From Pseudomonas parafulva (GTDB lineage: Bacteria; Pseudomonadota; Gammaproteobacteria; Pseudomonadales; Pseudomonadaceae), in the NCBI RefSeq assembly GCF_000800255.1, contig NZ_CP009747.1, forward strand, positions 3,410,001 to 3,474,000: DNA of 64,000 bases, written 5' to 3'. The notes under the pieces are model-generated. The model made no database searches and was not told the DNA's origin. It saw only the letters and a list, made by a program, of their open reading frames with translations. Position 1 is the stretch's first letter. Each line of letters opens with the position of its first letter. The translations under genes were made by a program, and so were the position numbers. Below are positions 45,433 through 64,000 of the stretch, piece by piece.

Positions 45433-45447
45433 AATCCGAAACAGAAG

Positions 45448-45472: not shown

Positions 45473-45483
45473 GTGCGCGGGAT

Positions 45484-45865: not shown

Positions 45866-45919
45866 GCATGAGACTCCAAGTTTGAGGTTGGAGCTACCAC
45901 GATCCTTCCTACGGGATTG

Positions 45920-45999
45920 GGTGGCAGCTGTGCGTGGGGTAGGAATACCGGGAAACTTGGAACCCGGCCAGGCCGAAGCCTGCCCACACACAGCCGCCA
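45920..45999 (-). ncRNA. Structured RNA resembling phage C4 antisense RNA
   Basis: The segment folds on paper into a three-way junction. A closing stem (GGTGG...CTGTG...GTGGG at 45920-45938 against CCCACACACAGCCGCC at 45983-45998, with one 3-base bulge and one mismatch) encloses hairpin CCGGG/CCCGG (45948-45967) and hairpin CAGGC/GCCTG (45969-45982). On the minus strand the last loop is a cUUCGg tetraloop, favouring that orientation. Layout and key bases resemble C4 RNAs, antisense regulators of P1-like antirepressor genes. The identification is from memory and needs a covariance-model search. Confidence 0.45.
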
Positions 46000-46017
46000 T
46001 GACATCACAGCAGACGC

Positions 46018-46051
46018 AAAAAAGGCGCCAGCCGATGGGATGGGGCGCCTT
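46018..46051 (-). terminator. Terminator-like hairpin upstream of the C4-like RNA
   Basis: 8-base stem AAGGCGCC/GGCGCCTT with a 14-base loop, followed on the minus strand by a T-run. It lies 19 bases before the C4-like RNA, so it would stop or attenuate transcription entering that unit. Confidence 0.6.
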
Positions 46052-46199
46052 GTGCGAGCGCCAAGTTTACCAGCAGGTTCCTACACCTGGTCGCAGATTT
46101 TGCTGCGACTTGGGGAATGTAGCCTTGAGGCGGACTTGTTCGCAACCGCTCGTGGGGAAGGAAATTTCCTTAAAGTGGGTAGTTTGTAATCACACCTAC

Positions 46200-47549
46200 G
46201 ATCGTGTCCCGAGAATTGGTGTAACTGAACCAACCGAAGGCGCCCTGTGGGCGAAAGAGAGTGGTCATCGTGGTTCTTGGCTAACGTTGAGTTTGCGAAG
46301 ACCTAACACTCACCAGGAAAACCACGATGACCAAGCCCACTATCGCACTGACCGAGTTGGTTGAGAAAGGAGCAGACGCTGATCTGCTCAAGCAAATGAT
46401 CCAGTTCGTTGCCCAACGCATGATGGAATTCGATGTCGAAAGCCTGTGCGGCGCCGGCTTCGACGTTAAAAGCCCTGACCGGATCAACAGCCGCAACGGC
46501 TACCGGGATCGCCTCTGGCAAACCCGCGCTGGCGATATCGATCTCAAGATCCCGAAACTGCGTCAGGGCAGCTATTTCCCCGGCTTTCTTGAGCCTCGTC
46601 ATACTGCCGAAAAGGTCATGGCCGCGGTGATCCAGGAAGCCTACATCCAAGGTGTTTCAACGCAGCTGGTCAAGGCCATGGGCATGACCGGCATTTCCAA
46701 GAGCCAGGTGTCACGGCTGGCCGGCGAGATCGATGAACGTGTCCACGCCTTCCTTGATCGCCCTCTGGAAGGCGACTGGCCTTACCTGTAGATCGACGCC
46801 ACGTACGTCAAGGTGCGGGAGGCCGGACGCATCGTCTCGGCCGCCTTAATAATTGCCGTGGCCGTGAAGTCCTGGGCATGCGGGTTGGGCCGTCGGAGGC
46901 CGAGCCGTTCTGGACGGACTTCCTGCAAAGCCTTATGCGGCGCGGCCTGCGTGGCGTGAAGTTGGTCATCTCCGATGCTCACGAAGGTTTGAAGTCTGCG
47001 GTTTAGAAGGTCTTCAACGCAACTTGGCAGCGCTGCCGAGTGCATTACATGCGCAACGCCATGACCCATGTCGGCAACGGCCAGCGCACCATGGTAGCGG
47101 CGCTTCTGTGCACGGTTTTCGCTCAGGATAGCCGCGCTGAATGCCACCAACAGTGGCGCTTGGTTGCATACTAACTGCGCGAAAAGTACCCCAAGATCGC
47201 GACACTCATGGACGGGTGCGAGGACGAAGTGCTGGCGCACATGGCGTTACCCAAAGCGCATCGACAGCAATTGCATAGCACCAATCCACTGGAGCGGCTC
47301 AACGCAGAGTTCAAGCGCCGCACCGACGTCGTGGGCATCTTCCCCAACGATCCTGCGATCACAAGGCTGGTAGGGGCGATGCTGCTGGAGCAGAACGACG
47401 AATGGTGCCTGCAACGGCGATAGATGCAGTTGGAGGCCTTTGAATCCGTCAGCGATAATCCACAGGCCAAGCTGTCGGCCGTGATCAACTAAACAGCAAA
47501 CTCAGTGGCCAGAGCCATGATGAGTTACACCACTTCCTGGGACACGATC
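46200..47549 (+). mobile_element. IS256-family insertion sequence, inactive
   Basis: A 1350-base element with imperfect terminal inverted repeats. The left end GATCGTGTCCCGAGAATTGG (from 46200) pairs with the right end ending at 47549: 20 of 23 bases match beyond a shared GATC. It contains one transposase gene, now broken. No convincing 8-9 base target duplication is visible at the flanks (ACACCTAC against ACCCTCAC), so the insertion is old or the flanks have rearranged. Confidence 0.85.
46327..47492 (+). pseudogene. IS256-family transposase, degraded
   Basis: The N-terminal 154 residues read cleanly ([23 protein letters not shown] ... [10 protein letters not shown]). A TAG at 46789 then replaces a Trp, just before the catalytic stretch IDATYVKVRE that holds the first Asp of the DDE triad. 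A frameshifting deletion follows near 46868, and stops appear at 47005, 47170 and 47421. Downstream pieces with LVISDAHEGLKSA and NPLERLNAEFKRRTDVVGIFPN are clear IS256 C-terminal sequence. At least five separate lesions show that it is long dead. Confidence 0.92.
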
Positions 47550-47605
47550 ACCCTCACAGGTCGCAGGGGCCTTAACCCCTGATAACACTCAACAACCGTG
47601 GCGGG

Positions 47606-49045
47606 ATGAGTGAGGACGAAGTCGATCATCTCAGGAGAATGGCGATGCAACTGTGCGAAGCGTTCGAGCCCCTACAACCCTTGCTGGAATACCAGCAAGC
47701 GCCACTGCCCTACCCAGTCGAAGCACTCGGGGATCTGTTGGGCCCTGCGGTCGAACGTCTGGCCGAGGTAATCGGCGTGCCCTGCGCCATGGCCGCGCAA
47801 TCGGTGCTGGCCAGCGCTGCCTTGGTGAGCCAGGGCCATGCCAATGTCCAACTGGACGGCCGAACCTATCCGCTGTCCCTCTACCTACTGACGGTGGCGT
47901 CCTCGGGTGATTGCAAAAGCGCGGTGGATCACCTGGCACTGAAGGCCGCGCGCGACTGGGAACGACAGCAATGGACCCTGTATGCGGAAAAGCTCAAAGC
48001 CTATCGCGCCGCTACCAGCATCATGGCCAAACCCAAAACCTCAAAGAAACACGCGGAGGCGGAAGGCGGTGAGCTGACCGAGCCGGTCCCGCCGAGACTG
48101 ATCATTGCCGAGCCGACCATTGAGGCCCTAGTCAAAAGTCTGTGCCATGGCTTGCCCAGCATGGGCTTGTTCAATGATGAGGGTGGCCAGTTATTGGGCA
48201 GCAGCACCATGAGCAAAGAGAACCTGCTCAAGGCGATCACCACCTTGTCGACACTGTGGGATGGCAGCCCCATCGACCGGGCGCGCTCCATGGCCGGAGA
48301 AAGCTTGAGTGCCTATGACCGCCGCCTCAGCCTGCACCTGATGCTGCAACCCTACCTGGCCAACCAGCTACTCAAAGACCCGGTGATCAAAGGCCAAGAC
48401 ATCCTGGGCCGCTGCCTGATCAGCTGGCCCGAACGTCTGGTCGGTCAGCGCTTGTACAAGGCAGTCGACCTGACGCGAGATGCCAAGGTTCAGCGCTACC
48501 AAACGCGCATTACCGCCCTACTGGATAAGCCACTGTCGCTGCACAAAGACAGTTCACTTAACCCCGCCAGGCTGGAACTGACGCCCAGCGCTCGCACTGC
48601 CTGGATTGATATTCACGACACCATCGAATGCCAGTCTGGCGAGTTCGGTGAACTGGCAGGAGTCCAATCCGTCGCAGGAAAAGCAGCGGCCAATGTGCTG
48701 CGCATAGCAGGTGTGCTCGCGGTAATTGAAGATGCGAATGTAGTGAGTGAGGCCCACATTCAACGCGCCTCAACACTGATGGATTACTACCTAGCGGAGA
48801 TCCAACGCTTGACCGAACAAGAGCCAATCAACACTTTACGTGAGGAAGCGGATCGACTGCTGCGCTGGCTGACGCAAAAAGGCTGGACCCAATTTACCAT
48901 CCGCGACCTCAATCGCAACGGCCCTCGCTTTGCCCGCAAGAGTAGCCATCACACCGCCACACTGCTCGTCGAGCTAATCACGCAGAACTGGTTGAACAGT
49001 CGCGATGCCAAAACTTTCGAGGTCCGCCATGTTTCGCCTCAATGA
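47606..49045 (+). CDS. DUF3987 (YfjI-type) accessory protein
   Basis: 479-aa protein with the DUF3987 architecture. Residues about 35-110 hold VERLAEVIGVPCAMAAQSVLASAALVSQGHA; then come PPRLIIAEPTIEALVKSL and GLFNDEGGQLLGSSTMSKENLLKAITTLSTLWDG; the C-terminus is a short helix-turn-helix-like end. It lacks a clear Walker A. DUF3987 proteins resemble primase/helicase-associated domains and occur in genomic islands with integrases; role unknown. It starts 57 bases after the dead IS, which may have displaced its original promoter. Confidence 0.8.
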   Translation: MSEDEVDHLRRMAMQLCEAFEPLQPLLEYQQAPLPYPVEALGDLLGPAVERLAEVIGVPCAMAAQSVLASAALVSQGHANVQLDGRTYPLSLYLLTVASSGDCKSAVDHLALKAARDWERQQWTLYAEKLKAYRAATSIMAKPKTSKKHAEAEGGELTEPVPPRLIIAEPTIEALVKSLCHGLPSMGLFNDEGGQLLGSSTMSKENLLKAITTLSTLWDGSPIDRARSMAGESLSAYDRRLSLHLMLQPYLANQLLKDPVIKGQDILGRCLISWPERLVGQRLYKAVDLTRDAKVQRYQTRITALLDKPLSLHKDSSLNPARLELTPSARTAWIDIHDTIECQSGEFGELAGVQSVAGKAAANVLRIAGVLAVIEDANVVSEAHIQRASTLMDYYLAEIQRLTEQEPINTLREEADRLLRWLTQKGWTQFTIRDLNRNGPRFARKSSHHTATLLVELITQNWLNSRDAKTFEVRHVSPQ

Positions 49046-49142
49046 CGCGGTACGCTGCTACTAGGCGCAACATCAATCGCAACCAGAAACACGGCGTGTC
49101 GCCACTTCTGTCGCCACCTTGTCGCCACGCGCAAGGCCAGGA

Positions 49143-49379
49143 ATGACGCGGGTTGTCGCCACTGTCGCCGCCCCACCACTTGACCCCGCCAACATCGCCC
49201 TGCTGATCGAGCGACTGCGTGAGGAAGGGGCACTGCTGGAACACTAGGAGAACGCCCTCCTGATCCGCCCGACACACTGGCAGCAGGTGGACAGGCTCAG
49301 CCCCCACTGGAAAGCCCTGCAGCTCTTTCTGCAAACAAACGAAAACGGTGATGACGATGGCACTGGTCGGTCGGCGTGA
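49143..49379 (+). pseudogene. Remnant of a small island protein, interrupted by an amber stop
   Basis: The frame starting at ATG 49143 reads DPANIALLIERLREEGALLEH, then TAG at 49245, and continues ENALLIRPTHWQQVDRLSPHWKALQLFL to a TGA at 49377. The pattern (helical LIxxLRxEGALLE followed by LxIRP) resembles small TubC-docking-like proteins found in the same place next to DUF3987 genes (from memory). The last 23 bases overlap the integrase start. Sequence just before it contains repeated TGTCGCCAC. Confidence 0.5.
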
Positions 49380-50337
49380 TGGTCGCAACTTTGGCTATGG
49401 CCGCCAGCTGAGCTACGCCGGCCCACAAGCGCTAAACGATCTGTTTGCCGGCGGCCACTTCGCCACGGTCAAAGCGCATAGCGATCGCTGGCAAGCGTTC
49501 GTGCGTTGGTGTCGGTCAGAGGACGGCCCCGGTTACAACGATGCGCCCCAGATCGACCGACAGACGCTGCAGGACTATGCCGCTTATCTGCGTCAGCAGA
49601 TTCATCAAGGTGAACTGTGCATCGCTACTGCGCAGAACCGCCTGAGCAGCGTTAACCGCACCCTCACCGCGCTGCGCGGTGATCAGGACGTGAGAATCGC
49701 CAGCCCGAGTCAAACGTTAGGACAGCAGCGCTCGAGCGTACGCACCCGCGCGCCGGATGGCCAAGACCATCAACAGGTGCGGCGAGTACTCGAAGCGCTT
49801 GGCCAACAACAACACCAGCGGGTGGCCGCGATTATCCTGTTGGCCCGAGCAACGGGTATGCGCCTGCGCGAAGCGATCCACGCTGATCTGCCACGTCTCC
49901 ACCGCGAAGCCGAGCACTACGGTCGCATCAACATCCAGGACGGCACCAAAGGCGGCCGCTCAGGGGCTTCAGCACCACGATGGGTTGTGGCGAATGAAGA
50001 GGTGAAGACGGCGCTGCAGTTGGCTCGCCATGCGTCTCCAAACGGCAGCCGCAACTTGCTGGCCCGAGACGAAAGCTACGCCGTGTTCCTGCAACAGACC
50101 GTGCTCCCCGCCCGCGAAACGCTGCATGAACACGGGCTGAAGGGTTTTCATGAACTGCGAGCGGCCTACGCCTGCGAGCGTTACGAACAGCTCACTGGCC
50201 ACGCCGCACCGGTCAATGGTGGCCACTGCTGCCGCATTGACCGCGACCTTGATCAACAGGCGCGGCAACAGATCAGCGTTGAACTCGGGCATAACCGGAT
50301 CGATGTGGTTTCGGCCTACATTGGAGGTCGAGCATGA
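49357..50337 (+). CDS. Tyrosine recombinase (integrase) of a genomic island
   Basis: 326-aa integrase. The N-terminal SAM-like core-binding domain covers about residues 20-115; the catalytic domain carries Arg in ATGMRLREAI, HxxR in FHELRAAYACER, LGHNR, and the nucleophile Tyr in VVSAYIGG near the C-terminus, so all active-site positions are visible. The start is taken as ATG 49357 (MALVGRRDGRNFGYGRQLSYAG), though 49351 and 49348 are in frame. The family is known from Pseudomonas islands, where it is followed by the small ORF found here at 50334. No adjacent attachment site is obvious. Confidence 0.9.
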   Translation: MALVGRRDGRNFGYGRQLSYAGPQALNDLFAGGHFATVKAHSDRWQAFVRWCRSEDGPGYNDAPQIDRQTLQDYAAYLRQQIHQGELCIATAQNRLSSVNRTLTALRGDQDVRIASPSQTLGQQRSSVRTRAPDGQDHQQVRRVLEALGQQQHQRVAAIILLARATGMRLREAIHADLPRLHREAEHYGRINIQDGTKGGRSGASAPRWVVANEEVKTALQLARHASPNGSRNLLARDESYAVFLQQTVLPARETLHEHGLKGFHELRAAYACERYEQLTGHAAPVNGGHCCRIDRDLDQQARQQISVELGHNRIDVVSAYIGGRA

Positions 50338-50693
50338 GCAAGCCGTTCGATATGGCGCTGTTCCTGAGCGGCGCACTGACCGGTTCGAAGTTCACGCAGC
50401 AACGACACCTACGGCAAGCCCGAGCCATGCAAGCGGCCATTCAACAGCGATGGCAACGAGACAATCCCTGGACCTGGCAACTCAAGCATGTGCGCTGGTT
50501 TCTCACTCAACACCTGAAAGACCATTCCTACGCCACCCGGTATTACTATCGCCTCACCACCCTATTGATCTGGAAACGATTAGGGAATCACCGAGAAATG
50601 CTGATCCAACGCTCGAATAGAGCCCTTGGAAGCAGCGTCGTTTCTAGGCATGATACTGCATATGGCCAGCATTACGACATCGAGTGCTGTTAG
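50334..50693 (+). CDS. Small integrase-partner protein with altered C-terminus
   Basis: 119-aa basic protein overlapping the integrase stop by 4 bases (ATGA). The first 85 residues (MSKPFDMALFLSGALTGS ... RYYYRLTTLLIWKRL) match the small ORF that follows this class of integrase. The remaining 34 residues (GNHREMLIQRSNRALG...) look unlike the usual short ending. The junction near 50580 is probably where the defence module joined the older island. It overlaps the start of the next gene in another frame. Confidence 0.7.
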   Translation: MSKPFDMALFLSGALTGSKFTQQRHLRQARAMQAAIQQRWQRDNPWTWQLKHVRWFLTQHLKDHSYATRYYYRLTTLLIWKRLGNHREMLIQRSNRALGSSVVSRHDTAYGQHYDIECC

Positions 50694-51708
50694 TTTCCGT
50701 TTAGGCGATAGGGATATGGAAGTAGCGATAAGGGTGATGTCACGCGGACAGGAAATTGACCGCATCATGCGCCCCCTCAGAATGGATGGGGGGCGGCCTG
50801 CCGTCACCTACAGAAAATTGCTCTGGCCAGTAGAAGACGGCTGTATCCATATCGAAAGCGAACACGATGCGGCCCTCTACCATGTGAGTACGAAGCTTGA
50901 CGACTGGGTGGAGCTTGTCACGCGCGTACTACCAGAGTCACTCCCAACTCACATCGATGAGTGTGCAGAACTACTTCGTGCCTGCTTCCGGGAAAATCTG
51001 CCTCATGGCGTTATACGCGCATCTTCCTCGCTGGTATCTGTTGGCCTAGAGAATGAAGCGCGCGACTTGCTAGTAGATTTCCTGCGCGAAAAGCACGACT
51101 CAGAACGCCTGAGCAAGCTGATACAGATGCAGCTGCTTTTCAGCGAAAGATCCAGCACCCCGCTCCCCCCTACGAATACAAATCCATCTGCTGAAAATAC
51201 AGAGCCTGAGATCGATACAGCCATATCCATCAAAGATGAGAAAACACTGGACTGGGATTGGATACCAGCAGATGAGGCGCAAAAACCAGAAGTAGATGAC
51301 CAAGTCCTGAGAACACAGGCCGAATCCACCCAAGAAACTATAGGTACCTACCGCACCATAGAACGTGGCGCAGTGATTTCGGGCCTCGCCGAATCTCTGA
51401 GCGAATCAGTATGGGTCGAAGAGCTTCTTCTACCGCCACAAGGTCGCACTTCCTCACTTGGGGAGAACACGCTTTTAGAGCGCACGGCAAAACTCGGAAC
51501 CATCGCATTGGACCTATTGAGATACTTTGCAGACAACCCGGGGGACCGAGCTGCCCACGCTGAATTGGTACTTGGATACCCTATCGCGGATATCAACAAA
51601 CTACTTACGGGCTCCCTAAGCCACTACCTGAAGAGAAGCGGGCCAGGTGGATGGGAATGCCACCCGTGGGCTTTAAGCATTCTAACCGCCCTCGACGAAG
51701 CCTTGTGA
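50662..51708 (+). CDS. Unknown protein of the defence module, possible C-terminal winged helix
   Basis: 348-aa protein with no recognised family. Residues 1-100 form a beta-rich region (SFRLGDRDMEVAIRVMSRGQEIDRIM); the middle (about 165-250) is acidic, Pro/Ser/Thr-rich and likely disordered. The last 80 residues (LERTAKLGTIALDLLRYFADNPGDRAAHAELVLGYPIADINKLL) read like a winged-helix DNA-binding domain. ATGs at 50650 and 50662 and a TTG at 50626 are all possible starts. It points at vsr tail to tail, with 41 bases between. It may be a regulator or specificity component; this is a guess from layout. Confidence 0.6.
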   Translation: MASITTSSAVSFRLGDRDMEVAIRVMSRGQEIDRIMRPLRMDGGRPAVTYRKLLWPVEDGCIHIESEHDAALYHVSTKLDDWVELVTRVLPESLPTHIDECAELLRACFRENLPHGVIRASSSLVSVGLENEARDLLVDFLREKHDSERLSKLIQMQLLFSERSSTPLPPTNTNPSAENTEPEIDTAISIKDEKTLDWDWIPADEAQKPEVDDQVLRTQAESTQETIGTYRTIERGAVISGLAESLSESVWVEELLLPPQGRTSSLGENTLLERTAKLGTIALDLLRYFADNPGDRAAHAELVLGYPIADINKLLTGSLSHYLKRSGPGGWECHPWALSILTALDEAL

Positions 51709-51749
51709 ACGCATCAGATCGCAGGGATGCTCACTGGCAATCTGCCGCA

Positions 51750-52163
51750 CTACTCAAGATCCCTCAGGCGCTCAAGCAACGCAAGCAGGGCGGTCTCAGG
51801 ATGTCTGAGCTCGCACTCCCACAAGACCAGAACGTTCCATCCATCACTCTCCAACCTCTGCATTACCGTCAAGTCTCTTTCAACATTGGATTGAAGCTTG
51901 GCCGCCCAGAAATCGACTCGTGTCTTGGGCAAGACAGCATATTTACATCCAGCATGGCGATGCCAAAAACACCCATGTACAAAAATACAGACCCTGAGTC
52001 TAGACAGTATAATATCCGGTTTTCCCGGCAGGTCTTTGCGATAAAGTCGGAACCGGTAGCCATGGGCGTGCAGAAAGCGCCTGACTGTCATTTCCGGCTT
52101 GGTGCCCTTCCCTTTGATGCCAGCCATCATGCGGGATCTTGTGGCGCGGTCGACGACATCCAT
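51750..52163 (-). CDS. vsr: Very short patch repair endonuclease Vsr
   Basis: 137-aa mismatch endonuclease that nicks 5' of T in T:G mismatches arising when 5-methylcytosine deaminates. The family motifs are intact: MMAGIKGKGTKPE at the start, LPGKPDI with catalytic Asp50, VHGCFWHRH with His63 and His68, and the ending VLVLWECEL. Length agrees with E. coli Vsr. It is on the minus strand, 29 bases from the start of the divergent dcm, so both genes probably share a promoter region. Its presence supports 5mC as the modification. Confidence 0.93.
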   Translation of the reverse strand: MDVVDRATRSRMMAGIKGKGTKPEMTVRRFLHAHGYRFRLYRKDLPGKPDIILSRLRVCIFVHGCFWHRHAGCKYAVLPKTRVDFWAAKLQSNVERDLTVMQRLESDGWNVLVLWECELRHPETALLALLERLRDLE

Positions 52164-52192
52164 TTAGTACTTCCTCAAAACAGCGTGGTTTC

Positions 52193-53794
52193 ATGAGTCG
52201 TAGCTATCCCATCCAGGTCGTGGATCTCTTTGCAGGCCCAGGAGGTCTCGGAGAAGGCTTTTCCTCTCACTCCAGCAACAATGCTGAGACCTTCGAGATC
52301 AAGGTCTCAGCCGAGATGGAGATCTCGGCTCGCTCCACTCTGCGACTCCGGGCTTTCTACAGGCTGCTGAAAAACCAACAACCCGAGGCCCTAGAGGATT
52401 ATTACAACTTTTGCGAAACAGCAGATGTAGCGGAGCCCTACACAAACAGAAGTCTTGAGGCCTGGAAGCATGCTGACAACGAGGCGCAGCTGCTGGAGCT
52501 GGGCACAGAAGAAGGCAACATCCGGCTCGACAGAATGCTGGAACATCGCCTCGACGAAACCAAACCATGGGTTTTGATCGGCGGCCCACCATGCCAGGCC
52601 TACTCAATCGTCGGGCGTGCAAGAAATCGCGGAAAACTGGACTATCGAGCAGAGGACGATCATCGACACTTTCTCTATCGTGAATACCTGAGGATCATTC
52701 AAAAGAAAAGACCCGCAGTCTTCGTGATGGAGAACGTGAAAGGGATTCTTTCATCGAAAGTAGCTGGCGAGCAGATGTTTCCACAGATCCTGCGAGACCT
52801 CGCTGACCCGGACGCAGCATTGGGAGAAAGCGAAAACGGGCCAAAGTACAGGATCTGTTCGCTGGTAGCCGACGACATCTACGAAAGCGGAGCTGACCCG
52901 GACAGCATCGAACCAAGCAACTACATCATTCGGGCCGAGAACTACGGCGTTCCTCAGTCCAGGCATCGAGTGATACTTCTCGGTGTTTCCGAGGAGTATC
53001 TAAACGCTCTTGGAGATCACAAGCTATCATCAGTCCAAGGACCATCAATAGACAAGGTCATCGGCTGCCTACCGCCCTTGCGAAGCACTCTTACCAAAGT
53101 AAAGGACTCTCCTGATGTCTGGGCAGATACCGTGCGTGAGCATCTGAGGGAGCTGAACCAGGAGTGCCTTCTACAGGTACCCGATATGCCTGAAAGACTA
53201 GGTCTAGCCACAAAACTCGGTATTCTCGCCAGCAGCTACGATGGTAGAGACCTGAACTCGGGAGGATTACGTGTTCTCAAAAAGAGTGCATGGAATGGCG
53301 TGACAGGCACCCACCTCGATGGCTGGCTGCAGGATCCTCGGCTCAAGTATTGGCTCAATCATGAAGCACGAGGGCACATGAGCTCCGATCTGCGTAGATA
53401 CGTTTATGCTACCGCTTTTGCCGAGACATACGAGGACTCGCCCAAAGGCCACCATGACTTCAACCTGCCAGGACTCGAACCAGACCATAAAAACTGGAAG
53501 ACCGGAAAGTTCAGCGACCGCTTCCGGGTACAGAGATCGGGCATTCCCTCCACGACGATAACCAGCCATATCGCCAAGGACGGTCACTACTTTATTCATT
53601 ATGATCCCAGACAATGCAGAAGCCTGACTGTCCGCGAGGCCGCCCGACTGCAAACTTTCCCTGACAACTATTTCTTTCTCGGAAACAGAACGCAGCAATT
53701 CCATCAAGTGGGCAACGCAGTTCCACCGCTTCTGGCTCGACAGATTGCAGATGTTGTAGCGCGCATTATCAGAAACGGAAAAGACACGAGATAG
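52193..53794 (+). CDS. DNA (cytosine-5) methyltransferase
   Basis: 533-aa modification enzyme. Motif I DLFAGPGGLGEGFS (residues 11-24), catalytic PPCQ with Cys134 (GGPPCQAYSIVG), motif VI VMENVKGILSS, motif VIII PQSRHRVILLG and motif X QVGNAVPPLLARQIA are all present. The distance from motif I to the catalytic Cys (about 120 residues) is roughly double the usual, because of an insertion holding NNAETFEIKVSAEMEIS and a helical segment. The ATG at 52193 begins at motif I; a frame from 52139 would overlap vsr. It starts a tight operon of five genes. The target sequence is unknown. Confidence 0.93.
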   Translation: MSRSYPIQVVDLFAGPGGLGEGFSSHSSNNAETFEIKVSAEMEISARSTLRLRAFYRLLKNQQPEALEDYYNFCETADVAEPYTNRSLEAWKHADNEAQLLELGTEEGNIRLDRMLEHRLDETKPWVLIGGPPCQAYSIVGRARNRGKLDYRAEDDHRHFLYREYLRIIQKKRPAVFVMENVKGILSSKVAGEQMFPQILRDLADPDAALGESENGPKYRICSLVADDIYESGADPDSIEPSNYIIRAENYGVPQSRHRVILLGVSEEYLNALGDHKLSSVQGPSIDKVIGCLPPLRSTLTKVKDSPDVWADTVREHLRELNQECLLQVPDMPERLGLATKLGILASSYDGRDLNSGGLRVLKKSAWNGVTGTHLDGWLQDPRLKYWLNHEARGHMSSDLRRYVYATAFAETYEDSPKGHHDFNLPGLEPDHKNWKTGKFSDRFRVQRSGIPSTTITSHIAKDGHYFIHYDPRQCRSLTVREAARLQTFPDNYFFLGNRTQQFHQVGNAVPPLLARQIADVVARIIRNGKDTR

Positions 53795-53834
53795 AGTCAA
53801 TCCAGGCACTACATGCTCGACAGGGAGAGTTCAC

Positions 53835-55328
53835 TTGCCACCGTCATTCAAGAGTCGAAATGCCCCTCCAAAGGCCAGCGCAATGGTCGAGGCACTGCGT
53901 GGGCTTGGCTACAACACACAGACAGCACTGGCCGACATTATCGACAACAGTGTAGCGGCAGGTGCGTCGGAAGTCAGAGTCGAACTAATCTGGGCAGAGA
54001 CAGAGAGCCGAATTACCTGCCTAGACAACGGCACTGGAATGTCAGCAGCCGGGCTTGATCTTGCCATGAGACTGGGCGAGCGAAACCCGCTAGAGGAGCG
54101 ATCAAAGTCTGATCTTGGTCGTTTTGGCCTTGGACTCAAGACCGCCTCCTTCTCACAGTGTCGCAGGCTGACTGTAGCGACAATCGGCACCGACAACATG
54201 CAGTCTCTACGCTGGGACCTCGACTACCTAGCCAATAGCCATGATGGCGGCTGGCACCTTCTAGAGGGCCCCCACCAAGGCTCGGAGAAATGTCTGGCGC
54301 CTCTTTCTGATGCAGGCAAAGGAACAATGGTGCTGTGGGAGGAACTAGACAGAATTATTACGCCAGGAAGTACGGTTCAGGACTTTCTTAACCTTGCCGA
54401 CAAGGTGGAGCAGCATCTCGGAATGGTCTTTCACCGATACCTTGAAGGAAGCAGGCCCCGCCTCAGAGTTCTGCTCAATGGTCAGCCCGTAAGGCCGTGG
54501 GATCCCTTTATGACGGACCATCCGGGAAAGCCATACAACCCTCCCGTATTCAAACATCCATCCATCAGAGGTATCGAGGCCGAATGTCATGTTCTACCGC
54601 ACAAGGACATGCTTTCGCCTGAAGACTTCGAGCGCTTGGGCGGCCCTGATGGCTGGACAGCGCAACAGGGATTCTACGTTTATCGCAACGAACGCCTTCT
54701 GGTAGCAGGCAGCTGGCTTGGGCTGGGAACCGGTAGATCTTGGACAAAGGACGAAGCCCATCGCCTGGCCAGAATCCGGATTGATATCCCGAACTCTGCA
54801 GATGCCGACTGGAAAATCGATATCAGGAAGTCCACAGCACGGCCCCCCATCTATCTTAGAGACTGGTTGACCAGCTTAGCCGAAGCGACCCGTGCCCGCG
54901 CCAGACGAGCTTTTGCCCATAGAGGACGACCAACATTGCTTGGCAACAAGCAGGTTGCTGAAGCATGGAAGGTCGAACGGCTCGCCAGTGGAATGCGATA
55001 CAGAATAGATAGCGACCACCCTGCAGTAAGAGACGTTCTGGATGAAGCAGGAACATTGCTCCCCCAGATCAAGGCAATGCTGCGAGTTATCGAAGAAACC
55101 GTTCCTGTCCAGCGGATATGGATTGATACGGCAGAAAACAAGGATACCCCGTGTACGGGGTTCGAGAAGGCACCATCCAGCGAGGTCAGTGAGATTCTGA
55201 TGGTCATGTACCGCGGCATGGTCGAGAGGAAGGGATACTCAGCCTCCTCCGCCAAGGAACAACTCCGAGCGACAGAACCCTTTCATGCCTTCCCTTACTT
55301 GGTAGATGCTCTGCCTGACAATTTATAA
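53835..55328 (+). CDS. GHKL ATPase (MORC/MutL/Hsp90-like)
   Basis: 497-aa protein. The ATP-binding fold fills about the first 200 residues: N box ALADIIDNSVAAG (31-43), G1 box DNGTGM (64-69), G2 box GRFGLGLKTAS (95-105). The N box has Asp34 where MutL and Hsp90 have the general-base Glu. Later sections contain a MutL-like S5-type domain (about 215-350) and a helical C-terminus. ATP-driven dimer closing may clamp DNA or partner proteins, as in MORC proteins. The start is a TTG with GGGAG upstream; no in-frame ATG fits. It is 40 bases after the methyltransferase gene. Confidence 0.88.
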   Translation: MPPSFKSRNAPPKASAMVEALRGLGYNTQTALADIIDNSVAAGASEVRVELIWAETESRITCLDNGTGMSAAGLDLAMRLGERNPLEERSKSDLGRFGLGLKTASFSQCRRLTVATIGTDNMQSLRWDLDYLANSHDGGWHLLEGPHQGSEKCLAPLSDAGKGTMVLWEELDRIITPGSTVQDFLNLADKVEQHLGMVFHRYLEGSRPRLRVLLNGQPVRPWDPFMTDHPGKPYNPPVFKHPSIRGIEAECHVLPHKDMLSPEDFERLGGPDGWTAQQGFYVYRNERLLVAGSWLGLGTGRSWTKDEAHRLARIRIDIPNSADADWKIDIRKSTARPPIYLRDWLTSLAEATRARARRAFAHRGRPTLLGNKQVAEAWKVERLASGMRYRIDSDHPAVRDVLDEAGTLLPQIKAMLRVIEETVPVQRIWIDTAENKDTPCTGFEKAPSSEVSEILMVMYRGMVERKGYSASSAKEQLRATEPFHAFPYLVDALPDNL

Positions 55329-55341
55329 GGAGTCGTAGCGA

Positions 55342-58173
55342 ATGTCCGAGGACAACAAATGGAGTGTGGTCAAAATCGTCCAGGAAATGCTTGCAGACGA
55401 ACAGGACAAGTCAGCAATTACTCCGACCCTGATTTCGCAAAAGATCGACATGGTGCTGAAGATCATGCCGACCAAGGCAGAAGGGCTCGACCGCACCGCT
55501 GTCACTGACGAACTCATTAGGCGATTCAGTATCTGGGTTGGTGATGATTCGTCGCTTGTCGATATGGCCGGGCACATACCCTGGCTTACCAGCGAGCGAA
55601 AGAAGGAGTGGCGCTACTGGCGGCGATACAGAGAATGGCAGGAGAAGAAACTGCCATGGAGCGCTATAGAAGCACTCGACAAGACAACCGACAATATCCT
55701 CTCGATGCTCGAAGATCCGAAACGCGAAGGGTCATGGGATCGTCGCGGTATGGTGGTTGGTCATGTGCAGTCAGGAAAGACAGGGAACTATACGGGCCTG
55801 ATCTGCAAGGCAGCCGATGCTGGCTACAAGATAATCATCGTACTGGCAGGCCTTCACAACAACCTGCGTTCCCAAACGCAAATGCGACTGGATGAAGGAT
55901 TTCTTGGCTACGAGACCAGCCCCATTGAGGGTGAAGGCAACGTTGCAATTGGAGTAGGAAAGATTGATCCTTCACCGGCTCTACGCCCGCAGTACGTAAC
56001 CAATAGGACAGAGACAGGTGACTTCAATACCAAGTTCGTAAAGAACCTTGGCGTATCGCCTGAACAGAAGCCGTGGCTTTTCGTAGTAAAGAAGAACAAG
56101 ACAGTCCTACAGCGCCTTTTGAAGTGGATTCACAAACATGTGGCTGAAACGACAGACCCTGAGACTGGCCGCCCATTGGTAACGCATCTCCCCCTTCTGA
56201 TCGTTGACGACGAGGCGGACCATGCATCAGTGGATACAGGAGAGAAAGTTGTCGACGACAACGGCCAGCCGGACCTTGAACACGAGCCAACGGCAATAAA
56301 CAGCCTCATTCGCCAAATATTGCACTCCTTTTCAAGAAAGGCCTATATCGGCTACACCGCCACGCCGTTTGCGAACATCTATATCCATGAACAAGGCGAG
56401 ACCACCAAGGAAGGACCAGACCTGTTCCCGGCAGCATTTATCACCAATCTCTCAGCCCCATCCAGTTACGTAGGTCCATCAAGAGTATTCGGGCTGGCTA
56501 GCGAAAATGGGCGACTCGGTGCGCTCGATCTGGTTCGCCCGGTCACGGACCAGTGCTCGGAAGATGGCAAGAGTGGCTGGATGCCTGTTAGTCACAAAAG
56601 CAGTCATACACCCCCAGATATCATGCCGCCCTCACTTATCGAGGCAATACAGGCATTCATCCTTGCATGCACAATTCGACAACTCCGTGGTCAGGGAGCA
56701 GAGCACAGCTCCATGCTGGTTCACGTTACCCGCTTCAACCTTGTTCAGCAGCATGTACACGGACAAGTCTACGATTACGTGATGCATTTGAAACAGCGTC
56801 TCAGACGACGCATTGATCATCAGGGCGCTCTATCCGAACTGCGTAGCCTGTGGAGCCGTGACTTCTTGTCAACTAGCGACAGCGTTGAAAAGCAAACGTC
56901 GGAGTCGCCTCACCGCACAATTACAGACTGGATTGAGATAGAACAGGCTCTACCGGATCTGCTGGAGCAGATCGATGTGCGCATGATCAATGGTACGGCA
57001 AAGGATGCATTGGACTATGCCGACAGCGCCACGGGACTAAAAGTCATTGCCATCGGCGGTGACAAACTGGCACGTGGGCTTACGCTTGAGGGACTATGCG
57101 TCAGCTACTTTCTCCGCGCCTCCAAGATGTACGACACACTGATGCAAATGGGCCGCTGGTTTGGCTATCGACCAGGCTACCTAGATTTGTGTCGCCTTTA
57201 CACCACGGAAGATCTAGTCGAATGGTTCGAACACATTGCCGATGCTGCCGAAGAGCTTAGAGCCGAATTCGACTTCATGATGGATAGCGGCCTTACGCCA
57301 CGCGACTATGGTCTCAAGGTAGTGTCCCATCCCGTGTTGATGGTCACATCACCGCTGAAAATGCGGACGGCAAAAACCCTGCATCTGTCTTTCAGCGGTG
57401 ACATTGTCGAAACGGTCAGTTTCTTCAAAAACCCTGCAAAGCTCGAACAGAACCTGGGGGCTTTCAACTTCCTTGCCGATAGCTTGGGAATGCCGTCCTT
57501 AATCCCTTCTCAGAGCCGAAATGGCCGAAAAGACAACTGGAACGGTGTGAATTGGGTTGATGTTCCGGTGCAGCCGGTAGTCGACTTTCTAAGGTCGTAT
57601 CAAACGCACCCGGATTCCCGGAAGGTTAGAAGCGATCTACTCGCGAACTTCATAGAGGAAATGAGCCGCATCGGCGAGCTTACCTCTTGGACTGTTGCCG
57701 TAATCGGTGGTGGTGTTGCGGAGACGGAGAACGTTGCGGGCTTTCAGATCAAACGCATGAAGCGAAAAAACAAATCTCTGGATACTGACGATAAGTACTC
57801 CATTGGCCGCCTGCTGTCACCTCAGGACGAGGCGCTGGATATCGATGAGCCGGCATGGAATGCCGCACTTGAGTTGACGCAGAAAAGCTGGAAACCCGAC
57901 CCTAGTCGCTCAAGAGGCAGAGAATTGCCTGAGGTTCCAAGCGGCCCCTACATCAGACGTATCCGTGGCCTTGGGGCCGACACCGTAGTCCCCGCCCCCG
58001 AAAGAGGGCTGCTGCTGATATCTATTCTCGACCCGGAGCAATCTGACGTTTCAGGCGTTAAAACTCCTATCATTGCATTTGCTATCAGCTTTCCTTCGAG
58101 CCATGCGGGGAAATCAGTGCCCTATGTCGTCACAAACCTTCTGTGGGAGCAGCAATATGGCGGCGCTGAGTAG
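55342..58173 (+). CDS. Z1-domain superfamily 2 helicase/translocase
   Basis: 943-aa protein. Walker A HVQSGKTGNY with Lys146, Walker B DDEADHAS (289-296), motif III YTATPFANI (about 346), and the Z1-type motif VI QMGRWFGYRPGY with Arg605. The Z1 domain proper covers about residues 395-620; the C-terminal 300 residues are unassigned. Z1 helicases occur only in restriction-type gene clusters (for example the ATP-dependent CglI system). It has a strong AAGGAG site, 13 bases after the ATPase gene. Its predicted job is ATP-driven movement on DNA and coupling to the nuclease. Confidence 0.92.
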   Translation: MSEDNKWSVVKIVQEMLADEQDKSAITPTLISQKIDMVLKIMPTKAEGLDRTAVTDELIRRFSIWVGDDSSLVDMAGHIPWLTSERKKEWRYWRRYREWQEKKLPWSAIEALDKTTDNILSMLEDPKREGSWDRRGMVVGHVQSGKTGNYTGLICKAADAGYKIIIVLAGLHNNLRSQTQMRLDEGFLGYETSPIEGEGNVAIGVGKIDPSPALRPQYVTNRTETGDFNTKFVKNLGVSPEQKPWLFVVKKNKTVLQRLLKWIHKHVAETTDPETGRPLVTHLPLLIVDDEADHASVDTGEKVVDDNGQPDLEHEPTAINSLIRQILHSFSRKAYIGYTATPFANIYIHEQGETTKEGPDLFPAAFITNLSAPSSYVGPSRVFGLASENGRLGALDLVRPVTDQCSEDGKSGWMPVSHKSSHTPPDIMPPSLIEAIQAFILACTIRQLRGQGAEHSSMLVHVTRFNLVQQHVHGQVYDYVMHLKQRLRRRIDHQGALSELRSLWSRDFLSTSDSVEKQTSESPHRTITDWIEIEQALPDLLEQIDVRMINGTAKDALDYADSATGLKVIAIGGDKLARGLTLEGLCVSYFLRASKMYDTLMQMGRWFGYRPGYLDLCRLYTTEDLVEWFEHIADAAEELRAEFDFMMDSGLTPRDYGLKVVSHPVLMVTSPLKMRTAKTLHLSFSGDIVETVSFFKNPAKLEQNLGAFNFLADSLGMPSLIPSQSRNGRKDNWNGVNWVDVPVQPVVDFLRSYQTHPDSRKVRSDLLANFIEEMSRIGELTSWTVAVIGGGVAETENVAGFQIKRMKRKNKSLDTDDKYSIGRLLSPQDEALDIDEPAWNAALELTQKSWKPDPSRSRGRELPEVPSGPYIRRIRGLGADTVVPAPERGLLLISILDPEQSDVSGVKTPIIAFAISFPSSHAGKSVPYVVTNLLWEQQYGGAE

Positions 58174-59170
58174 CACCGATATTCTAGGTACTTGGAGGGC
58201 GCTTCCCGGTAACGCATCGATCCCCGGATGGAGATCCATAGATCTCTTTCAGTCAGGCACCTGTCGAGTAAAAGCCGCTAGGCATGCTCCCGGAAATGAA
58301 GAGGCCATTCTGATTGGGTTTTCGAGTGCCAAGTTAGCTCCAACCTCACAGCTACCCCAAGGACAGGGATTTCGCATGGAAAGAGCGACTCTTGGCGAGA
58401 CTGCTGGCGAATATCAATGGCTTGCAGTCGTTCGCCAATCTGCGGGCAATCTTGAACTGTTTGCCACTGTTGTGACGGATGTCTGCGGGCTTATTGACTC
58501 ATCCGATAGCTACCCTGAAGATCTGCTGTATCAACGGCTGCTTGGAAGGGTACGCGGATGGCAGGAGTTCATGCGCAGGGGCCGTGAAGGACTTAGCGTC
58601 GAGGCAGAACTGGGGCTTGTAGGTGAGATCTGCCTGCTGCGCTACCTTTTTGATGAAGGCGTACCGTTTTTTTCTGCAGTTGATGGATGGAAAGGACCGC
58701 TCGACGGCCTGCATGACTTCCAACTGGGGACAGGCGCAATAGAGGTCAAATCAACAATGGCCACGGAAGGCTTTCCAGTGAGGATTGCCTCTTTGGACCA
58801 GTTGGACGACTCCGAGTGCCCGCCACTCTTCCTTGCAGCGCTCCGCTTTGGATCGAACGAGTCGGGCATAACTCTTCCCGAGTACGTATCGAATACTCGC
58901 CATCTTCTGGAGCCCGATCCTGCAGCGACAAGACTTTTCGAGCAGGCACTCCTTCATGTCGGCTATCTGGACATGCAGGCAGAAACCTACACACGTCGTT
59001 TTTCGTTAGGCGAGATCAGGATCCATCTCGTGGATTCGGAATTTCCTAAGCTGACACCTTTCAACATCCCTACACCTATTCGCCGAGCGCAGTATGAACT
59101 CGATCTGGCATTGCTTCAGGTCGATAACTGCCCTCTTTCGGATGTGCTTGAGAAACTTGGAGTCGTTTGA
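58157..59170 (+). CDS. PD-(D/E)XK nuclease subunit (DUF4420 type)
   Basis: 337-aa protein. A nuclease core is visible at about residues 150-220: Asp187 in GLHDFQLGTG and Glu196-Val-Lys198 in AIEVKST, matching D-(x)n-ExK. The upstream helix GLVGEICLLRYLFDEG fits the family (Pfam DUF4420, PD-(D/E)XK motif protein). The ATG at 58157 overlaps the Z1 gene by 17 bases, with GGGAG 7 bases upstream, and the stop overlaps the AIPR gene start, so all three are translationally coupled. Predicted to be the DNA-cutting subunit. Confidence 0.88.
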   Translation: MAALSSTDILGTWRALPGNASIPGWRSIDLFQSGTCRVKAARHAPGNEEAILIGFSSAKLAPTSQLPQGQGFRMERATLGETAGEYQWLAVVRQSAGNLELFATVVTDVCGLIDSSDSYPEDLLYQRLLGRVRGWQEFMRRGREGLSVEAELGLVGEICLLRYLFDEGVPFFSAVDGWKGPLDGLHDFQLGTGAIEVKSTMATEGFPVRIASLDQLDDSECPPLFLAALRFGSNESGITLPEYVSNTRHLLEPDPAATRLFEQALLHVGYLDMQAETYTRRFSLGEIRIHLVDSEFPKLTPFNIPTPIRRAQYELDLALLQVDNCPLSDVLEKLGVV

Positions 59171-61020
59171 TGGAACTTGTGGACTTTCTGCGAGAAACGC
59201 AGGCATCAATCAGAGAAGAAATAGAGAAAGATGTTGCTCCAGGTGCAGCGCCGGTTCCTGCCGAGGCCGTTTTCACCGAGCAGGTAATGACACATATGGC
59301 AGATGAAGGCATCACCTTTGAGCCAACGGTCTGTCATTACGAGGCAAAAGTCGGAGGCAGCATCGGCGGGAAAAGCGCGGCCTATAAGGTCAGAATCAGT
59401 GGCTACTCGGTGTCCGAAACCACAGACGAAAATGGAAGCCCCGACAGGCTCGATCTTTTTGTCAGTCTCTATAAGGCACTGGACGAAATCGAATCCCTTC
59501 CCGACCAAGAAGTAGGCAAGGCGGCAAAAGAAGGCCTGCAGTTCCTCAGGTTCTGCGCAACCGGGCAGCTAGCCGGAAAGCTCGATGAGACCAATGATGC
59601 CTACGCGCTGGTAACGGAAGTCGAACGTATCTTCAAGACACTCGACAACATAAGGATCTTCATAATTACTGACGCGCTGGTCAAAACAAGGACCTACGCC
59701 CCCCATGATGTCGAAGGCAAGCAGGTCCGACTTGAAGTCATGGATATTCAGCGCTTGTTTAACCATTGGCAACAAGGCCGACCGCGCGATGAACTAATAG
59801 TCAATTTTCAGGACCTCTGCGGAACAGCGCTACCAAGCGTATGGGTTCCGGGCTCAGGTGACGACGAGTATGACTATGCTCTGACAGCAGTACCTGGTGA
59901 GGCACTACGCTTTCTCTACGAAAAATACGGCCCGCGCATTCTTGAAGCCAACGTACGCTCATTCCTTGGGGTAAACAGCAAAGGAGTGAACAAGGGGATT
60001 CGCGACAGTCTGCGGAATAATCCTGACCGTTTCATGGCATACAACAATGGCATCGTTGTTGTGGCCGATGCCGCCAAACTGGACCGCGCTAAAGATGGAT
60101 CAACGGGCATCCTGTGGCTGCAGGGTATGCAAATAGTTAACGGCGGGCAGACGACTGCCTCCATCTACTTCGCCAAGAAGAAAAATCCTGAGATAGATCT
60201 GAGTAACGTACGAGTCCCAGCCAAGATCATCGTGCTGCGAAATGGGCAAGGTGATGACGAAGAGCTGATCTCGAATATTTCTCGCTATGCCAACAGCCAG
60301 AATGTCGTCAAGCAGTCAGACCTTTCCGCCAACAAGCCATTCCACCGTGAGTTGGAGAAACTGTCCATGCGCACATATTGTCCGGATGGTGTGGGCCGCT
60401 GGTTCTACGAACGATCAGCAGGAAGCTACAAGGTGATGCTGGAAAAGGAGGCGACTACACCTGCTCAAAAGAAAAAACTGCAGGTTGCCATCCCGACATT
60501 CCGCAAGATCACCAAGCCTGATCTAGCGAAGTTTCTGCTCACTTGGGAGCAAAAACCTCATGTTGTTGGACTGGGTAGCCAGAAGAATTTTCAGGCATTC
60601 ATGGATGAGCTAGCCGAACGAGAGGGCGCTGGGGGAAATGTGATCCCGGACCAAGAGCAGTTCAAAGAAATGATTGCAAAGGCAATCCTCTTCAAGTCTG
60701 CCCAGAAGATTATCAGACCCTTGTTCCCCGCATTCCAAGGCAACATCACGGTCTACACGGTCTCGGTGCTCGCGCTTAAAATGGGTAATAATTTCAACTT
60801 TCAACGTGTCTGGCAGGAGCAAGCCATTTCACTACAGCTGCAAAGACAACTAGCAACTTGGGCGCATGAGGTAAATGAAGCACTTCATCGCGGCGCTGGT
60901 GGAAAAATGATCTCCGAATGGGCCAAGAAACAAGAGTGCTGGGGACAGGTAAGCGATACTCGCTATTCTGAATTAGAGAAAAACATCCCAGAGCACTTCA
61001 CCCCTGAAACTTTAAAGTGA
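59170..61020 (+). CDS. AIPR-family abortive-infection/phage-resistance protein
   Basis: 616-aa protein. The AIPR domain (Pfam PF10592) covers about residues 255-560; conserved pieces are NNPDRFMAYNNGIVVVAD, MQIVNGGQTTASIYF (Asn324) and ISRYANSQNVVKQSDLSAN. The N-terminal 250 residues are unassigned. The start codon overlaps the upstream TGA. AIPR proteins occur in abortive-infection and restriction clusters; the biochemical activity is not established. Last gene of the operon; a drop in GC follows at once. Confidence 0.9.
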   Translation: MELVDFLRETQASIREEIEKDVAPGAAPVPAEAVFTEQVMTHMADEGITFEPTVCHYEAKVGGSIGGKSAAYKVRISGYSVSETTDENGSPDRLDLFVSLYKALDEIESLPDQEVGKAAKEGLQFLRFCATGQLAGKLDETNDAYALVTEVERIFKTLDNIRIFIITDALVKTRTYAPHDVEGKQVRLEVMDIQRLFNHWQQGRPRDELIVNFQDLCGTALPSVWVPGSGDDEYDYALTAVPGEALRFLYEKYGPRILEANVRSFLGVNSKGVNKGIRDSLRNNPDRFMAYNNGIVVVADAAKLDRAKDGSTGILWLQGMQIVNGGQTTASIYFAKKKNPEIDLSNVRVPAKIIVLRNGQGDDEELISNISRYANSQNVVKQSDLSANKPFHRELEKLSMRTYCPDGVGRWFYERSAGSYKVMLEKEATTPAQKKKLQVAIPTFRKITKPDLAKFLLTWEQKPHVVGLGSQKNFQAFMDELAEREGAGGNVIPDQEQFKEMIAKAILFKSAQKIIRPLFPAFQGNITVYTVSVLALKMGNNFNFQRVWQEQAISLQLQRQLATWAHEVNEALHRGAGGKMISEWAKKQECWGQVSDTRYSELEKNIPEHFTPETLK

Positions 61021-61237: not shown

Positions 61238-63052
61238 ATGGATATTTCAGCGGGGCAAAATTTAAGAAACCTAGCCGACTCAGAGCTAATACGAATACTA
61301 GACTCACTCCCTAAAGATCCAATATCAAAAATGACCTTATTCATAGACATGATGAGGTTTCTAGATTATTTTACCGTATATAAAGACTCGCTACCTAAGG
61401 AGCAAATAACTTCGACCTCAGAGTCAGAGCTATATAGACTTGGCTGGGGAATGGCCATAAAGCATTTTTTTGTAGACATCGGAAAGCCGGGAATACCAGT
61501 TAGGGAAAGTACTACCGGAACAAGAAAAATTGCAGCTCAAGTATTGTATCGACTAGGGGCGATCGCCTTCCTAAAAAACATTTCAGACTTAAACTGTACC
61601 GGACTGATAGATATCCACACCTCCACTGACCAAATAACAGTGACTGCACGAGAAGAGATCACATATCAACTTATGGATGCACTACAGTCCACATACGCAT
61701 CTCAAATCGATCTAGCGGTAAGAAAAAACACAACCGGCTTCTCAAATGGATGGAAAGTTTTTAGCTTTGATGAAGAACCCGATGAAATAAAGGCTGTTGG
61801 TGCATTCTATGGCTTCAATAACTCCAGCCTACACAAAGACAAAAAAATTGAAAATGTAAGAATACTGATGGAACCATTGATATTCCCTCATGACTTGGGA
61901 CATGGAGTCATGATGGGGTACGGTGCTGACCCTCGAATAGATAATCATTTCTTCTCTCTAGCCCTTGACTGGATAAGAGAGGCACGAGACCAAGCAGGGC
62001 TTCATCCTAGTGTAAAAATCAACGGAATAAGCGCCGTACACATCATAGTCGTCACTGCTGTGATCATAGCACTGCATACTAAACACATTACATTTGCAGA
62101 TATAGCACTCCATAAAATAAAGGAAATATCAATACCGCAAAGCCTGACCATCTGGACCACGCAAAGTGACCTTATAGATGCAGTTATGGCTCATACAGGC
62201 TTCGAGAAAGACCTGATATCTGAAATTCTCGACATAATATCTTTTAAAATATCAGACCTTTCCACATTCAAAAGCGGCAGTTATATTTCACCACTACTAC
62301 TTGACATGGGCAATGGAATGTTTCTTCGGCCCGTCGCCAGCATACTCAGAAACCCATTTCATTCAATGATTGAACTACTCACGCAAAGAGACATAAATAC
62401 AACCAACGCTATCGCGCTCCCTAGAGAGGATTGGCTTAGAAGCCACATTTATTACATGTTCATGGGAAATCGATACAAGCGGGTAACAGGAAATATTAAG
62501 TTACGAAATGCAGGACGAACAATTACCGATCTAGACGGCGCTATTTATGATACTGTTTCAGGAAACCTTGCGCTCTTTCAGTTGAAGTGGCAGGACTATT
62601 TTGTTTTTGATGTTAAAAAGCTTCGAAGCAAGGCAAAAAATCTTGCTTCCGAGATAGATTCATGGGGGGAGGCTGTAGAGTCATGGCTGAAAGATAAAAG
62701 TTCAGATGAACTCGTAAAAACGCTGCGACTGAAGCTTCCAGAAGGAAAGTCAATTACCAGAATTTATCTTTTTGGAATTTCTTGGTCGGCCTTCCGTGTT
62801 CAAGGGTATGGCTACAGCCGCGAGGCCAGCCATGTAGCCTGTTGTAACCTTCCAATGTTTCGTCGAGTTCGCTACAGCATTGGGAAAAGTATTGATGTAT
62901 TTGGTGACATCTTTGAACAGCTATTAAAAGAACAAACACACATAGATGAAAACATAAAAAAAGAGTCCTTAGATCTATATCTACCCGGGATAAAAGTGAG
63001 ACTCAAAGACCTGTTCTTTAGTTACTGCCCCCCCCGAATCTTGTCTGCGTGA
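61238..63052 (+). CDS. AT-rich orphan protein with a PD-(D/E)XK-like C-terminal motif
   Basis: 604-aa protein of unknown family. The gene is far more AT-rich than all neighbours and uses rare Pseudomonas codons (ATA, AGA, TTA), a sign of recent transfer. No signal peptide; the N-terminal 400 residues are mainly helical with no known motif. Near residues 431-451 the stretch TDLDGAIYD...LALFQLKWQD has Asp433 and Gln448-Leu-Lys450, the D-(x)n-QxK variant of the PD-(D/E)XK nuclease core. No strong ribosome site; AGGGATAT precedes the ATG. It lies 217 bases after the restriction operon and may be an independent defence gene. Confidence 0.7.
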   Translation: MDISAGQNLRNLADSELIRILDSLPKDPISKMTLFIDMMRFLDYFTVYKDSLPKEQITSTSESELYRLGWGMAIKHFFVDIGKPGIPVRESTTGTRKIAAQVLYRLGAIAFLKNISDLNCTGLIDIHTSTDQITVTAREEITYQLMDALQSTYASQIDLAVRKNTTGFSNGWKVFSFDEEPDEIKAVGAFYGFNNSSLHKDKKIENVRILMEPLIFPHDLGHGVMMGYGADPRIDNHFFSLALDWIREARDQAGLHPSVKINGISAVHIIVVTAVIIALHTKHITFADIALHKIKEISIPQSLTIWTTQSDLIDAVMAHTGFEKDLISEILDIISFKISDLSTFKSGSYISPLLLDMGNGMFLRPVASILRNPFHSMIELLTQRDINTTNAIALPREDWLRSHIYYMFMGNRYKRVTGNIKLRNAGRTITDLDGAIYDTVSGNLALFQLKWQDYFVFDVKKLRSKAKNLASEIDSWGEAVESWLKDKSSDELVKTLRLKLPEGKSITRIYLFGISWSAFRVQGYGYSREASHVACCNLPMFRRVRYSIGKSIDVFGDIFEQLLKEQTHIDENIKKESLDLYLPGIKVRLKDLFFSYCPPRILSA

Positions 63053-63577: not shown

Positions 63578-64000
63578 ATGCCCATCCCAACCTACGACCA
63601 GTTCATCGAGCCCATCCTGCGCTTCCTAGCCGCCCACCCGACAGGCTCGACAGCGAGCGAGGCCCACGAAGCAGCCGCACACGCCTTGGGCCTGAGCGAG
63701 GCACAGCGGCAAGAAACCATCGCCAGCGGCCAGCCCACCTACAAGAACCGTTGCGGTTGGGCACACGATCGGCTTAAGCGCGCAGGCTATTCCAGCAGTG
63801 CCAAACGCGGCTATTGGCAACTGACTGAAACGGGCCGCGCCTTCGCTCAAACCAATCCCACGCCATTGAGCCCGGCACAGGTCGAGCATCTGGCCATGAA
63901 CTACATGAGTGTGAGGCTCAAGACAGCGCCGGACGCCGCCTCTTTGGATGACCTCAACGACACCTCCACGCCCATTGATCAGGCCGACCTCGCCACGAGC
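63578..64000 (+). CDS. mrr: Mrr-type type IV restriction protein, 5' part (runs off window)
   Basis: The first 141 codons are present. The N-terminal winged-helix Mrr_N domain (about residues 1-95) is clear: PTYDQFIEPILRFLAAHP, then YKNRCGWAHDRLKRAGYSSSAKRGYWQLTETGRAFA. The catalytic Mrr nuclease domain would lie beyond the window. Mrr enzymes cut methylated DNA. Base composition has returned to that of Pseudomonas. AGGAAG lies 10 bases before the ATG at 63578. Another restriction activity next to a methyltransferase system raises the question of compatibility. Confidence 0.85.
   Translation, partial: MPIPTYDQFIEPILRFLAAHPTGSTASEAHEAAAHALGLSEAQRQETIASGQPTYKNRCGWAHDRLKRAGYSSSAKRGYWQLTETGRAFAQTNPTPLSPAQVEHLAMNYMSVRLKTAPDAASLDDLNDTSTPIDQADLATS

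Follow-up and report, generated by a model that had tools for sequence, protein, structure and literature searches.

By gene content, a gene cluster of Pseudomonas parafulva belongs to the MZA anti-phage system, with its own methyltransferase and a protein that seems to replace MzaA

By its gene content, a seven-gene cluster (Table 1) in a 64,000-nucleotide stretch of the Pseudomonas parafulva genome (contig NZ_CP009747.1, positions 3,410,001 to 3,474,000; hereafter the window) is a Pseudomonas version of the MZA anti-phage system (mzaABCDE; NCBIfam NF041931–NF041935, PADLOC Mza) with its own methyltransferase. A protein here called U seems to replace the sigma-factor-like MzaA and to dock onto the complex by the short tag that MzaA also has. 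The comparison suggests that methylation is the self mark for MZA and that the sigma-like protein belongs to a set of recognition parts that can stand in for one another.

An MZA core without MzaA

The window proteins MzaB, MzaC, MzaD and MzaE are homologous to those of MZA over nearly their full length, and their genes are adjacent and in the same order. The cluster differs from MZA in the absence of MzaA, in the placing of U, vsr and dcm in front of the core, and in the NCBIfam scores of the four proteins, all of which lie under the equivalog cut-offs (MzaB 808.9/850, MzaC 1396.9/1500, MzaD 382.2/420, MzaE 900.4/1050). The MzaB cut-off was passed by none of the 396 Pseudomonas genomes searched, 49 of which have some MzaB match. 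Neither an MzaA match above noise nor a sigma domain was found in the seven genes with Pfam, PADLOC and NCBIfam, the last giving a weak match of the MzaA linker in U (E 0.042). The solved structures nearest to window MzaB are the MORC and MutL ATPases.

An earlier sequence-only reading had described the cluster as a seven-gene restriction-like system. Re-reading of the open reading frames (ORFs) placed all seven genes where it had put them, with the same gaps and overlaps, and Pfam recovered every domain it had named. Its interpretation is partly supported: the restriction-like core and the linked methyltransferase stand, and four of the genes are named MZA genes, since the profile-based defence search that it proposed, run with PADLOC, returned MzaB, MzaC, MzaD and MzaE. 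A wholly new defence system was rejected because both NCBIfam and PADLOC name these four genes.

Relatives were sought by scanning species genomes with an MzaB alignment, which gave at least 564; the best 80 were kept, which confines all counts to the family members closest to the window. Locus gene content was called with profiles built in this analysis: MzaB and MzaC were found in 80 loci, MzaD in 78, MzaE in 76, MzaA in 71 and U in six, while a C5 methyltransferase was found in 64, Vsr in 61 and both in 58. The homologues do co-occur elsewhere, as the earlier reading needed, and the four core genes stand in a fixed order on one strand in 76 of the 76 loci holding all four. A second, longer frame matching the MzaE profile follows mzaE in L009, L010, L022 and L023, which form one clade of the MzaB tree.

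Protein U and its likeness to MzaA

U is composed of an N-terminal beta/helical domain (residues 1–145), a variable linker, and a predicted C-terminal winged helix (248–329), which is predicted to be ArsR/MarR-like and resembles the end of ZorC. The linker contains an MzaA-like motif at residues 179–217, with a helix at 196–211. Across the 80 loci, U and MzaA are mutually exclusive; the three loci with neither lie on contigs that start within about 650 bases of mzaB. The window shares the gene order U-vsr-dcm-B-C-D-E with L002–L006 (L003 being Pseudomonas maioricensis), with L075, and with L142 and L143 from other Pseudomonas genomes. These are the U-type loci, together with the decayed Pseudomonas locus L148, a remnant in which fragments of U and MzaD survive beside a long MzaE, and where neither MzaB nor MzaC was found in 20 kb. 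A U match occurs in eight of 398 Pseudomonas genomes, three of which (G364, G234 and G235) were set aside as having only long ZorC-like frames, one of the three being profile-checked. No match to U was found in 72,556 plasmid records, and no relative in viral contigs by a scan that finds close relatives only.

In an MzaB tree of 80 rows (79 loci and the window, L075 being left out for its split gene; a quick method, unrooted), the six U-type rows form one clade with a support of 100, the deep forks having about 82–84, and the passage from MzaA to U is a single change. We infer that MzaA was the ancestral state and was lost in the U group, because this group forms a single shallow clade at the level of a family, next to rows of MzaA type that are mostly betaproteobacterial.

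The motif stretch is conserved among U proteins, with a median identity to the window of 0.49 between flanks of 0.16 and 0.29, and resembles the MzaA linker between the ankyrin repeats and the sigma domains in its Trp, acidic residues, Pro, Asp, Ala, Gln and Ile. A profile of 70 MzaA linkers was searched against 3,451 other proteins (3,384 locus ORFs of at least 100 residues, MzaA excluded; 66 U homologues; and the window U). The U family took 60 of the first 63 ranks, with a best E of 4.7e-7, and these sixty matches count as one observation because the U homologues are kin; the three exceptions are a cut MzaA-like frame (L068) and two rhizobial small proteins. In the reverse search of the U linker against 7,327 ORFs, 71 of them MzaA, the six U proteins came first; of the next 17 rows (ranks 7–23), 16 were MzaA, as were 32 of all 49 reported rows. 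Several values weigh on the other side: the window U itself matches the MzaA-linker profile at E 0.005, the best MzaA matches the U profile at E 0.0022, and the whole-profile comparison of U with MzaA gave a probability of 63% (E 6.8e-5 for a single comparison). The motif common to U and MzaA is regarded as real but short.

A third carrier is possible. In the rhizobial loci L070, L073 and L076, which also carry MzaA, a protein of about 235–300 residues without a Pfam match overlaps or closely follows mzaE, and it is homologous to part of the EcoRII-C-type endonuclease of the same locus, outside the EcoRII-C domain. Near its C-terminal end stands an MzaA-linker-like motif (E 4.7e-5 and 4e-4; the third protein not significant). 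In these loci the endonuclease gene lies near vsr, and the methyltransferase is from a different lineage.

U and MzaA might instead be transcription regulators, a winged-helix repressor and an alternative sigma factor, standing outside the DNA-reading machine; they would hold expression of the operon down or turn it on upon infection, and the swap would be a change of control. The sigma-70 regions of MzaA (2 and 4 kept in three of three tested, 3 in two of three) would fit transcription better than they fit the reading of a methylation motif, and the predicted winged helix of U points the same way, as does a related family of likely regulators adjoining mzaA, mostly just upstream, in L008, L012, L015, L027, L048, L052, L062 and L066, with a WYL domain in the one member tested (L062). 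We nevertheless hold this to be rather unlikely: U converges on vsr and is not placed divergently where the core genes begin, a conserved linker motif shared by both proteins would serve no need of regulators, and the similar motif in the EcoRII-like protein of two loci would be left unexplained.

Linkage of the methyltransferase and Vsr to the core

A search of the genome, a single contig of 5,087,619 bases, found no C5 methyltransferase and no Vsr besides those of the cluster. Among the surveyed loci, a methyltransferase was not found within 10 kb in 16 of 80. In nine of these, the contig breaks off inside the core or shortly behind it (L013, L019, L025, L042, L045, L051, L054, L068 and L080); in L025, L045 and L054, several kb of upstream sequence are nevertheless present and contain no methyltransferase, and the L054 genome carries one methyltransferase on a contig of 3.1 kb and a second on a different contig. 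In five others (L022, L028, L057, L069 and L079), a check of overlapping sequence placed a methyltransferase on the same contig beyond the flank, and the last two are the Enterobacteriaceae loci L044 (Enterobacter) and L056 (Kluyvera). With the nine truncated loci set aside, 69 of 71 showed linkage, whereas none of 20 control restriction-modification loci did. The controls were drawn from the 22 strongest HsdR loci of 149 Pseudomonas genomes, two at contig ends being passed over, and were read with the same profiles over 20 kb in 18 cases and over 12 and 16 kb in two; neither dcm nor vsr was present in any. Three further Pseudomonas loci (L144–L146) have MzaA with Dcm and Vsr, and a divergent, cut locus (L147) has Vsr and a weak Dcm.

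The linked Dcms are 38–87% identical to the window Dcm in 50 of the 55 compared. In 24 of the 61 Vsr loci, vsr follows mzaE on the same strand within 100 bases, even where dcm lies elsewhere; therefore, vsr seems to belong to the MZA transcription unit and to be more than just a companion of dcm. Three loci have vsr without a methyltransferase within the stretch read.

Some of this evidence tells against a common function or narrows its reach. The control covers a single genus, the Dcm profile was trained on MZA-linked sequences, and nine of the 64 linked methyltransferases, being short frames, fall outside the identity comparison. The linked methyltransferase is of another lineage (25–31% identity) in L016, L067 and the three rhizobial loci, and six loci have a methyltransferase without Vsr within the stretch read. 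In the enteric bacteria, dcm-vsr is on another contig than MZA in L044, and in L056 (genome G401, contig C151) it lies about 33 kb from mzaA on one 59-kb contig, so the separation is partial in Kluyvera. A match to enteric mzaB was found in 55 of 5,426 E. coli genomes; in M19, the one examined, annotated dcm-vsr lies about 66 kb from mzaABCDE, and no annotated methyltransferase of the C5 kind occurs within 14 kb on either side. This loose neighbourhood in Kluyvera and E. coli M19 may or may not matter; all three enteric hosts examined have their own dcm-vsr.

That presence in the hosts, with the linkage seen in MZA loci and in none of the controls, the 24 loci with vsr right behind mzaE and the likeness of the linked Dcms, makes it quite improbable that Dcm and Vsr form a solitary-methylase pair of their own that merely rides in the same islands, with the MZA core sensing another cue (e.g., a phage product) and acting by abortive infection through AIPR. 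Such a pair would account for the enteric loci without dcm and vsr nearby and for the wide variation in dcm position and strand (of 64 loci, dcm is downstream in 28 on the minus and in 12 on the plus strand, and upstream in 20 on the plus and in four on the minus strand). Also in its favour, Caulobacter is reported to have a solitary C5 methylase whose Vsr-like partner is encoded elsewhere (PMC12907096).

CCWGG is no more than a candidate target of the window methyltransferase, since the recognition region of this enzyme is 25–27% identical to that of the two enteric Dcm proteins compared. The idea is based on the DrmMII match, on the EcoRII-C-type endonucleases of the three rhizobial loci and on the specificity that we take the EcoRII-C family to have. 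A sentence about DISARM in a review (PMC12926258) also underlies it. In the MZA locus L039, the gene at 17662–18951, near the methyltransferase, encodes an endonuclease that on testing showed an AspBHI N-terminal and an Mrr catalytic domain, and relatives occur in L034 and L048; this family is known to act on methylated cytosine.

Genomic setting, related systems and meaning

Table 1. Cluster genes and adjoining features of the window.
Feature	Position	Strand	Assignment and basis
Integrase	49348–50337		Tyrosine integrase
U	50716–51708	+	330 residues, no named family; Pfam/NCBIfam/PADLOC and profile comparisons
vsr	51750–52163	−	Very-short-patch repair endonuclease family; Pfam Vsr 2.1e-28; TIGR00632 above cut-off
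dcm	52193–53794	+	C5 cytosine DNA methyltransferase; PPCQ and ENV motifs present; best PADLOC model DrmMII
mzaB	53835–55328 (alternative start 53883)	+	GHKL (paraMORC/MutL-like) ATPase; PADLOC MzaB 7e-203, 673 bits; NCBIfam MzaB 808.9 bits
mzaC	55342–58173	+	PADLOC MzaC 1338.9 bits; NCBIfam 1396.9 bits
mzaD	58157–59170	+	DUF4420, putative PD-(D/E)XK nuclease, EVK 196–198; Pfam DUF4420 6.8e-73; PADLOC MzaD 3.7e-65, 219 bits
mzaE	59167–61020 (ATG 59170)	+	AIPR family with AIPR_N; Pfam AIPR 1.3e-92, AIPR_N 1e-37; PADLOC MzaE 2.6e-212, 705 bits
604-residue protein	61238–63052	+	No match in Pfam, NCBIfam, PADLOC or PHROGs
Mrr-type gene start	63578–64000	+	Mrr N-terminal domain; cut at window end

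The cluster is located in an island, as its lower G+C (about 0.51–0.54, against 0.62–0.71 in the first 44 kb of the window) and the tyrosine integrase in front of it indicate. The stretch before the cluster (45041–50337) contains a tmRNA gene, a DUF3987 protein and the integrase, along with pieces that we take to resemble transposase; a search for a further copy of the tmRNA 3' end gave none. The 604-residue protein behind mzaE has a homologue (31% identity) between vsr and dcm in the MZA locus L071, and the gene cut by the window end is a further restriction-type gene of the island.

The earlier reading had also linked the cluster to a known GHKL/MORC-like restriction-modification class, and the likeness is borne out: the combination of GHKL ATPase, SF2 motor, restriction endonuclease (RE)-fold nuclease and C5 methyltransferase is present, and the SF2 motors with a DThhQ..RhFG domain, DCM, VSR and AIPR share neighbourhoods with the GHKL ATPase and RE-fold nuclease in the paraMORC/MORC account (Iyer 2008; PMC2292703). 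That account described a network of pairings in 2008, and its accessible part describes nothing U-like. CglI and NgoAVII, as far as the accessible part of their description goes (PMC4267653), differ in having three genes, without GHKL ATPase or AIPR, and a PLD-type nuclease fused to a B3 recognition domain; no Pfam domain of such a fusion was found among the cluster genes. DISARM was rejected, the DrmMII match (2.7e-85) being that of the methyltransferase alone, without DrmA, DrmB or DrmC; PADLOC gave no Drm match for the other seven proteins (the methyltransferase matches listed being the best 25 of its 58 families). Zorya was likewise rejected: the C-terminal 80 residues of U do resemble the end of a single type I ZorC model (EH signature; E 9.7e-12), but U is half as long, the rest of it is unmatched, and no ZorA or ZorB match occurs here. 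A further system compared has a published identity of about 20% to mzaBCDE, with mzaA in few only, and the window core is much closer to MZA; its paper mentions a putative transcriptional regulator and nothing recognisable as U.

That the U-type loci are decaying relics, with MzaA lost and U an unrelated neighbour, has in its favour the several broken genes of L075, the broken U of L143 and the L148 remnant, and is highly improbable given that every gene of the window and of L002–L006 is one uninterrupted open frame, given 77–89% identity of MzaB, MzaC, MzaE and Dcm between them beside 46–55% for U, and a gene order kept across U-type loci where the two flanking genes tested are not.

In the open-licence literature searched, no description was found of U, of the motif that it shares with MzaA or of MZA lying apart from dcm in enteric bacteria, and no explanation of how MZA distinguishes phage from host or why a sigma factor is present. 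Methylation as a self mark and exchangeable recognition parts would together explain both. The purpose of the housekeeping Dcm-Vsr pair of E. coli has long been debated; if the present reading is true, the pair gains a possible job, as the self mark for MZA.
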